Below the pieces are notes generated by a model that did not search any database, had not been told where the DNA came from, and saw nothing but the letters and a program-made list of their open reading frames with translations. This document shows positions 26,701-29,700 of a stretch of 64,000 nucleotides of DNA, piece by piece (position 1 is the first letter of the stretch; each line of letters begins with the position of its first letter). This stretch comes from Halisarca cf. caerulea (taxonomy: Eukaryota; Porifera; Demospongiae; Chondrillida; Halisarcidae). The translations under genes were made by a program, and so were the position numbers. Where the stretch lies: positions 1,678,101 through 1,742,100 of the forward strand of contig CAUJGJ010000083.1 of the NCBI GenBank assembly GCA_963170055.1. The letters run 5' to 3'.

Positions 26701-29700
26701 TTCCATGTGGAATTCTAGCATTGACTCATTTCTGTCTGTGGTATGTACCTTCTACTTTATGCTTAATGCATATACATACTACGTAACTACCTAACTTTTC
26801 CATGTATACATATGTACATACTATTAGACCCCTGTGATACTCTTGAGTGACGTTTGGGTATTATTGGAAGAGGCCATTTGCAGCAGCAACCATGATCTGG
26901 TATGATATTCACGTAAATGTGTACTTTATTATTGACTGTTATTGAATGCTTATGTACAGTACTGATTAGAATTACTTTACCATGGTAAGCATGATCAGTC
27001 AGTGAGTACAAGCGCGAGTGCCCACAAGTGCATGCACCTATTTCCACCAATTTATAAGCTGGTGAGTGTAAAATGGTGGCAGGAATGTTCACACCATGAA
27101 GTGTCAAAAACACACTTATAATGTGAACGAAAAGTAGTTTGGAGTTAATAGATATGTGGTGGTTTAGAGTTAATAGAGATATGGTAGATCAGCTTTCTAG
27201 TTATCTAAAGAAATGAATGATCCATTTAAGTTAAGATGTGAAATTATTTCGGAAATTGTAGCAAGTTTGGAGGCAGAAAGAAGACAAAAGTCACAGTTAA
27301 AAGTCGTAATTAGGGTATTTCGTTGGGAATCCAAACTTGGATTAAAGGGCAAGCATTGAGCTGAAACACCAACAAAAAGTATAAATGAAATCACAGCTTT
27401 CATCGAAATTATAAGATCAATATTTATGATTTCCTCTATCGAAGTACCTATGTAAATGCACCATGCAACCATACACAGTACATCAAGATAACTGTAGAAT
27501 GGAAGTTGTGCAAACCAGTTATGGTAGAGTGAGAAGTTGTGCTTGCACTAACACGATGGATTTGTCTCTTGTCCTCAGAATGAAGCCATTTAATTTTCGT
27601 TACAAGTCACATCTGGCCATGCAAGATATAACTCAAATCTTCATACAATGCTTCAAATGTGGCTAAAACTAGTACAATAGACTCTTGCTAGCCTGCGTAC
27701 ATGTCTGTGGTTTGAAGAAGCTACTATGCTTAGAGTGATAATTAAATGAGAGTACTCACATGTATGCGCATGCACATGCGGACTGCCCTTACTTAGTGCA
27801 TGTTTTTATAGTAAAGTACAGTGGAACCCACTTAACACGAAATTTGAGGGACCACTTTCAAATTTCATGTTAAAAGAATTTCATGTTAAAAGAAGCTGAT
27901 TGTTGAAACAAATTATATGCTGTATAAACCCTTAAACTTCTACTTTATGGACTTTTAACTTTAGTTTGCATTGAATTAACCCAATTTCTGTGTTTCCACA
28001 TAGTTATCTATGGCTAGTACAAGGGTATGGGGTTTGTTCTATTTATAGTAACAACAAAAAAATGGCGTCGAGATAATCGGTGTGATCAGTTTGTCGATAT
28101 TTTGGCCGAATTTAGCTCTTATTTCAACCGAAAACAGCTGCCTCTGTTGGCTCAATGGTAGGTAGCTGCTGTTTTTCGCTTTAAGCATAAAAATACTTGT
28201 TAAGGTCAGAATATTCTTTCGTGTTAAGCAAATTTTCGTGTTATGTGTACAGTCAAACCTCGTTAGTGAGTACACCTGGGGACCCTCCTAATTGCTACTC
28301 ACTATCAGTAGTACTTGCTAACCATATAGATTAGTATTATGGGTTATAAGCTGGGGTATCATATCCTTGTACTTCCTAACCAGGTATTACTAACAGTGTT
28401 CTCACTAACGAGGTTCTACTGTATATTTTAGTACTGCTGTGTATATAATGATACTTGGGACTTGAAAAATATTTCGTGTTAAGCGATATTTCATCTTAAG
28501 CGAGTTCGTGTTAAGTGGGTTCCACTATAATTCTAATCAGCACTGTACGTACAGTACGGTTCATAAAAAAGGAAACAATAATTTTGTTTAGGGCTTGGAA
28601 TTTGTAATCGCAAAGTATTTAGGAACACACAATATGATTTCAAAGAGTTTATTGAATGAATCAAAGGGTACAGAATGCCAGCTGACCTATCTAGCAAGGA
28701 GAGAATGTGACCAAAACAAAATCATGTGTGTAGCAGTATATGGGACCCGTCTTGGGCCAGGAAAAAATTTTCTAGACTTTGAATCCTCTTGTCTTCAGAC
28801 ACAACGAAATTTTCCCGTATCACATCTTACCTTTGCTGTGGGTTGGAGGTTGGGTAAGCTTATTTAACAGGGGAAGCCTTTAGCCAATGGCTACTATGCT
28901 AGGCACCGTGCTTGTGGTGCGGTGACATCACAGAACATTTTCTTCTCAATAAAACCGAGGCTAAACAGAAACACGTTAATTTCTACCTTATATCAGTTGC
29001 TGCTCAGCGGTCAATTCCATATCATTTACCTGTTACCGTTGCTTTTTTTATGAACCGTACTGTACTGTACATACAGTGATGTACATGTATGTATACAACC
29101 ACAGTGAAACCTGCTATTCAGGACACTTGAAAATCTAGACACCTGAGTAAACTGAACGTTAGGTTATGGCTTCAAATTGTCATACACATATTGTGAGTCA
29201 TATTGGGGCAACCCTGGAAAATCAGGACACTTCGGTGGTCCCTAAGGTGTCCGCATTATATAGGTGCCACTATATTACCGTATATGCTTTAATTTTTGTA
29301 GGTTGAAACATAGACACTCTAAACTACGTAACCAGTAGTTTAGAGTGTCTATGGTTGAAAGTTCCGCAGATCTTGGCTTTTGTGATTTTGACATTTTTAT
29401 ATTCGCAGATGGCCATGCTTTATCATTGCACATAAGCACAATCTAATTTTTTTCAAGTGTAAACTTTCGCAGATGGCTTCTAATCCGTGACCACAATTAT
29501 AAAACCACACAAACCTTTACGTGTGTATGGTATCACAAGATATGACACTAAAAATAAACAGATAAGACACAATTTTAAACTATAGCACAGTACATAAATA
29601 AGGTATAGTGCGGATCAGAAAAGTTAACATTAACCAGTCAAAAAGTTAACATTTTTTGTATTAACTTACGCTGGAAAGGCTATAGGTTAAAAGTTAACGG

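Follow-up and report, generated by a model that had tools for sequence, protein, structure and literature searches.

Short palindromes in the genome of Halisarca cf. caerulea as highly probable excision footprints of P-superfamily transposons

The window, a 64,000-nucleotide stretch of the Halisarca cf. caerulea genome, contains a 45-bp near-palindrome at 29309-29353, CATAGACACTCTAAACTACGTAACCAGTAGTTTAGAGTGTCTATG, with an exact copy of GTTGAAA on each side. The flanking direct repeat matches at 7 bp and fails at 6, 8 and 9 bp. Both arms of the palindrome match the outer part of a terminal inverted repeat (TIR), and the left arm would be 26 nt long if the parent element had carried an A at position 26, a variant that is present in some TIRs. 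Related features lie elsewhere in the window (Table 1): a second palindrome whose arms of 21 and 24 nt meet at a 2-nt microhomology, a one-armed version, and a 788-bp element which is the still-occupied state within the same window as the focal scar. The focal palindrome sits between repeat stretches (29100-29275 and 29604-29900) that have dozens of relatives in the genome.

Table 1. Features in the window, labelled according to the excision reading proposed in the text.
Feature	Position	Strand	Comment
Target-site duplication copy 1, GTTGAAA	29302..29308	.	Exact 7-bp repeat
Putative retained left end of departed element: outer 25 nt of TIR plus A	29309..29334	+	TIR consensus from L075-L078
Putative retained right end: outer 19 nt of TIR	29335..29353	-	
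Target-site duplication copy 2, GTTGAAA	29354..29360	.	
Second two-armed putative footprint, GTTAGAC + 43 bp (37795-37837) + GTTAGAC	37788..37844	.	
788-bp non-autonomous element of a related subfamily (38884-39671), ends CATAGATACTC/GAGTATCTATG, CAGAAAT repeats	38877..39678	.	
One-armed putative footprint, CTCTCAC + 24 nt of one TIR end (47480-47503) + CTCTCAC	47473..47510	+	Other arm lost

The preliminary description of this DNA had reported the palindrome between its two GTTGAAA copies together with an empty paralogous site, and both observations are borne out. The paralogue at 48431 is uninterrupted, aligning contiguously over the focal insertion point once the flanks are joined (score 40; the best of 200 shuffles reached 35), an alignment that is weak on its own. 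Better paralogues were found at L044 804-967 on the minus strand (71% over 177 bp, E 5.5e-16) and at L055 1676-1825 on the plus strand (72% over 151 bp, E 8.2e-14), and both have no insert at the focal point. An allelic copy of the focal locus, carrying either the full element or the scar, was sought and not found, the locus being unique in the genome; an allelic copy of another locus, L041, was likewise sought in the genome and not found.

To place the palindrome in its genomic context, we searched the assembly (194 Mb in 454 contigs) for its 11-nt ends, CATAGACACTC and GAGTGTCTATG. Units with these exact ends and a total length of 31-69 bp occur at 107 places. The ends are separated by 9-33 nt (31-55 bp in all) at 103 places, where a reversed control pattern gave 0, so the focal palindrome is not a chance palindrome; with 17-47 nt between them (39-69 bp) they occur at 50 places, 4 of which exceed 55 bp, and the control again gave 0. 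The class of 38 bp and shorter is known from 50 listed of the 103 places and from the sampled loci. The preliminary description had named the lack of 7-bp duplications at other copies as a result that would speak against it. At 76 distinct places with both flanks, however, the 7-bp direct repeats are exact at 32 and have 1 mismatch at 22, 2 mismatches at 9 and at least 3 at 13, and 54 of the 76 thus have repeats with no more than one mismatch. When flanks were swapped between copies, this level of agreement was reached in 96 of 5,700 pairs (1.7%). The 22 places with two or more mismatches count against the footprint reading. The 32 exact repeats give the palindromic target consensus GTTNAAC (G1 in 19, T2 in 27, A6 in 29 and C7 in 17 of 32). 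A de novo scan of 279,850 bases, from which 21 duplicate or array loci including the arrays L028 and L079 were omitted, returned CATAG...CTATG palindromes with exact 7-bp repeats and none with repeats of 4, 5, 6, 8, 9 or 10 bp. The 76 sampled copies comprise 64 different sequences and have no common interior beyond the TIR ends.

Some places depart from this pattern. The copy at L028, which lies inside a GTAGTAG repeat, is an exception in that its repeats match at 8 bp and not at 7. Places of 54, 66 and 69 bp (C222, C258 and C168) have 6, 5 and 3 repeat mismatches, respectively, and do not look like simple footprints. At L109 (C290:6289756-6289815) there is a composite palindrome that encloses an additional TIR end together with a near copy of its flanking repeat. 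Two different footprints stand back to back with a common 7-bp repeat at L093 2736-2837 and at L041 1001-1104 (in L041 with one mismatch at one end), as if one target had been used twice. Tandem arrays were also observed. In L028 (approximately 1457-1882, C150) units of a TIR end plus GTAGTAG repeat at 25-bp spacing next to a footprint, an arrangement that looks like a satellite seeded by a scar; L079 895-1820 (C241) consists of many 29-bp units, each approximately the first 25 nt of a P-type TIR plus four bases, and is possibly another satellite born from a TIR end.

The same ends are found farther apart in inverted pairs, which represent complete elements of 917 bp (L077), 887 bp (L078), 2,147 bp (L076) and 2,283 bp (L075), among others. 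Elements that carry these or related ends range in size from 0.4 to 5.2 kb, and most are flanked by 7-bp repeats: for 15 with both flanks, the repeats are exact 7-mers in 11, 7-mers with one mismatch in 3 and an exact 8-mer in 1 (L076). TIRs of the complete elements are about 36-39 bp long, begin with CATAGACACTCTAWACTACGTAACCGGGACTGGAA and are followed by subterminal inverted motifs, for example GTGACCATGACTGTTAA in L078. The TIR of L078 has 39 bp with 1 mismatch, that of L096 36 bp without mismatch, and that of the element at 38884 in the window about 32 bp with 2 mismatches; all start with CATAGA.

L096 (103-5260; 5,158 bp; TCCAAAG repeats) is a relative of the focal subfamily with a somewhat different TIR, CATAGATACTCTATACTTACGTAACCGGGATTGGAA. 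Its minus strand encodes matches to PF21787 (E 2.3e-25), PF21788 (E 2.3e-7) and PF21789 (E 2.1e-7), each above the curated cut-off; these are, in this order, the RNase H N domain, the GTP-binding insertion that splits the RNase H fold, and the RNase H C domain of a P-type transposase. On this evidence, the parent elements belong to the P superfamily. The hAT, MULE, Dada and Merlin superfamilies, which are known for 6-9-bp duplications, had been considered first and were rejected on the P transposase domains of L096. PF21787 has 34 matches in the genome and 0 in 14 control genomes. None of the 34 falls within the complete elements of the focal CATAGACACTC subfamily that were located, so the exact autonomous parent is absent from the located set. 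L076, which carries the focal TIR, and L096 have a second open frame in common (41% over 170 aa, E 6e-37).

This common frame, at L096 693-1328 (+) and L076 1449-2081 (+), is uncharacterised: it gave no Pfam match in either element, and its 11 relatives in the protein database are named at most hypothetical protein, one of them having PF22824. No THAP match was found in the 8 open pieces of L096, which were scanned piece by piece, and the scanned pieces of L076 gave no Pfam match. When one transposase piece was compared by sequence with solved structures, a single match at chance level resulted (E 0.75). At 1939-2346 (+), L075 contains a reverse transcriptase piece (PF00078), probably a fragment of a retrotransposon nested in this P-type element, which itself has 7-bp repeats. 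The 4.6-kb L095 was considered as an autonomous candidate and rejected, as its transposase at 821-2817 (-) is of piggyBac type (PF13843) and is nested in a P-type element.

Compared with these complete TIRs, the short units contain only the outer part of each repeat. A complete census covered the 50 places of 39-69 bp. The shortest arm has 11 nt and the longest 27 nt; 26 of the 50 places have an arm that measures 24-27 nt, and 0 of 50 have one of 28 nt or more. Thus no arm longer than 27 nt occurs among 100 census arms, though the TIR extends about 10 nt further. Among 235 TIR starts in the sampled loci, the retained length is either at most 27 or at least 33 nt and the interval of 28-32 nt is empty; L028, L073 and L079 were left out of this sample, which was partly chosen for lengths of at least 24 nt, a choice that does not favour the gap. 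One-armed scars have 24-25 nt of a single end placed directly between the repeats, as at 47480-47503 in the window and at L017, or with a small filler, as at L010. L016 1105-1524 (420 bp, TATGAAC repeats) is complete at one end, whereas at the other 25 nt of TIR run directly into internal sequence, a structure expected from interrupted gap repair.

The junctions between arms are varied. For the 50 census places they comprise filler of at least 4 nt in 22 (a class inflated by later substitutions, and a point against the footprint reading), microhomology of 1-4 nt in 16, filler of 1-3 nt in 8, blunt joins in 3 and a longer microhomology in 1. TACGTA, a self-complementary 6-mer at TIR positions 17-22, defines a 38-bp class of products with a 6-nt microhomology. 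Scored within 2 substitutions, this product makes up 22 of the 76 sampled copies compared with 7 of 256 under random joining (p 7e-17), so that TACGTA near the tail end is favoured about tenfold over random joining, in line with microhomology-mediated end joining. The two arms of these 22 products differ at position 14 (TT in 12, AA in 4, AT in 3, CT in 2 and AC in 1), which indicates that they are not copies of one template.

Together, the arm ceiling, the one-armed versions and the 64 different sequences among 76 copies speak for scars of independent excisions over the amplification of a mini-transposon. We therefore consider it highly probable that the focal palindrome is a footprint left by the excision of a cut-and-paste P-superfamily transposon; most likely it is not a miniature jumping gene but the scar of a larger P-type element that cut itself out. 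In the proposed series of events, an element of approximately 0.4-5 kb, with TIRs of about 36-39 bp starting CATAGAYACTC, would insert at a palindromic GTTNAAC-like 7-mer and duplicate it, a step that is directly visible in the complete elements and their repeats. The transposase would then cut one strand at the exact border of element and flank and the other approximately 24-26 nt into the TIR, so that both donor flanks keep 3' tails with about 25 nt of TIR sequence; we infer this step from P-element biochemistry and from the sharp upper limit on retained length. The cut is placed at 24-26 nt since the last 1-2 bases of arms scored as 26 or 27 nt can often be attributed to the other arm. Host end joining would seal the tails, most often through annealing of TACGTA, which gives the 38-bp products, and otherwise by 1-4 nt microhomology, blunt or filler joins, a pathway suggested by the observed junction sequences. 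At the focal copy, 25-26 nt of the left end would have met 19 nt of the right end, either directly or through a single extra A. From then on the scar would be inert and decay.

The Drosophila P element provides the closest model for these steps. Its transposase cuts one strand at the element's 3' end and the opposite strand 17 nt within the TIR (PMC7776569), and the donor flanks keep 17-nt 3' tails that are sealed by end joining partly dependent on polymerase theta; in a spn-A background, loss of this polymerase lowers end-joining products by 30-50% (PMC2895639). The excision products consist of the duplication, up to 17 nt of TIR end, a junction, up to 17 nt of TIR end and the second duplication (PMC2895639 Table 1). 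The sponge units have the same order of duplication, outer TIR end, variable junction (microhomology, blunt or filler), outer end and duplication (PMC2895639), and the elements likewise have TIRs that start with CAT and a P-type transposase (PMC7776569). They differ in having 7-bp duplications and retained ends of up to about 26 nt, compared with 8 bp and 17 nt in Drosophila (PMC2895639, PMC7776569). The Drosophila products are laboratory events, whereas the present set is a putative standing record at natural places (PMC2895639). Arms of 18-27 nt are common in this genome, which argues that the tail is longer here than the 17 nt of Drosophila, and the transposase probably makes a stagger of about 25 nt, judging from the retained ends. 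This departure from the known tail length is a point against the footprint reading.

The preliminary description had proposed that the 45-bp unit moved as a transposon. The insertion with a true 7-bp target duplication stands, but movement of the unit itself is not supported. MITEs are short and palindromic, with TIR ends and a duplication, and they move as units with a common interior. In a version of this idea, head-to-head TIR units of 38-50 bp would themselves be recognised by the P-type transposase as substrates for excision and insertion, and would have multiplied as a very short MITE. The copies do have mobile-element ends and, in the majority cited above, well-matched 7-bp repeats, and the 38-bp form recurs. 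The present units, however, have TIR ends alone and mostly different junctions; copies derived from one another with a common interior were not found, arms vary between and within copies even in the 38-bp class, and one-armed scars and a sharp arm ceiling below full TIR length speak against movement of a unit. The Drosophila transposase moreover contacts the inner half of the TIR and adjacent internal sites, and these are mostly missing in the short units (PMC7776569). We consider this explanation very unlikely. The same description had called 7 bp an unusual duplication length, which does not hold for the P superfamily, where Galileo duplicates 7 bp of its target (PMC2775673).

Inverted repeats can form hairpins that get deleted, and the inner parts of the elements are indeed absent, so that host recombination or replication slippage between the terminal repeats of resident elements could be imagined to have removed them without cutting by a transposase. 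Under such internal deletion, arms of all lengths would be expected, 28-39 nt and more among them, which the census arms do not show, and the filler and one-armed forms resemble transposase-made breaks in Drosophila (PMC2895639); we regard it as highly improbable. A conserved regulatory or structural palindrome, for example a protein-binding site or hairpin RNA, would fit the near-perfect palindromy but has a negligible probability, since the flanking 7-bp repeats vary by place, the ends are identical to those of complete transposons and the empty paralogous sites refute it as the origin, though single copies may have been co-opted later.

Excision footprints may not be confined to the focal subfamily. 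The second arm type, with ends CATAGATACTC/GAGTATCTATG, occurs at 167 places of 22-52 bp (control 0) and at 13 places of 53-83 bp, one of which overlaps an already counted place. Among 50 listed of the 167, 41 fit one of three interior types and have no arm longer than 27 nt, and 9 fit none; this subfamily scoring was used for the arm ceiling alone. The TTACGTAA-annealed 40-bp product expected from the TIR of L096 occurs twice among the 50 listed places. From their arm structure, these places are candidate scars.

Other members of the superfamily show both likenesses and differences. Galileo has 7-bp duplications with a near-palindromic consensus, GTAGTAC where the sponge elements have GTTNAAC, but its TIRs are long and Foldback-like whereas those described here are about 36-39 bp (PMC2775673). 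Zebrafish Pdre2/THAP9 also belongs to the P superfamily and has TIRs that start with CATA, and differs in its 13-bp TIR and 8-bp duplication (PMC10983969, PMC7776569). No standing genomic set of P-type scars was described in the titles and abstract openings of the literature searched.

Palindromes of this kind are easily mistaken for very small mobile elements, and reading them as scars removes a false class of transposons. The number of scars suggests that past insertions outnumber the elements still present. We think it reasonably likely that in this branch of the P superfamily the transposase cuts the non-transferred strand some 25 nt into the TIR and staggers its target by 7 bp, and that the genome preserves approximately 270 candidate scars, so that the cut position, the target preference and the spectrum of heritable end joining could be read without experiment. 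A large natural set of P-type scars would allow the stagger of a P-superfamily transposase, about 25 nt here, to be estimated directly, and would also record how heritable breaks with long 3' tails are repaired in a eukaryote genome.
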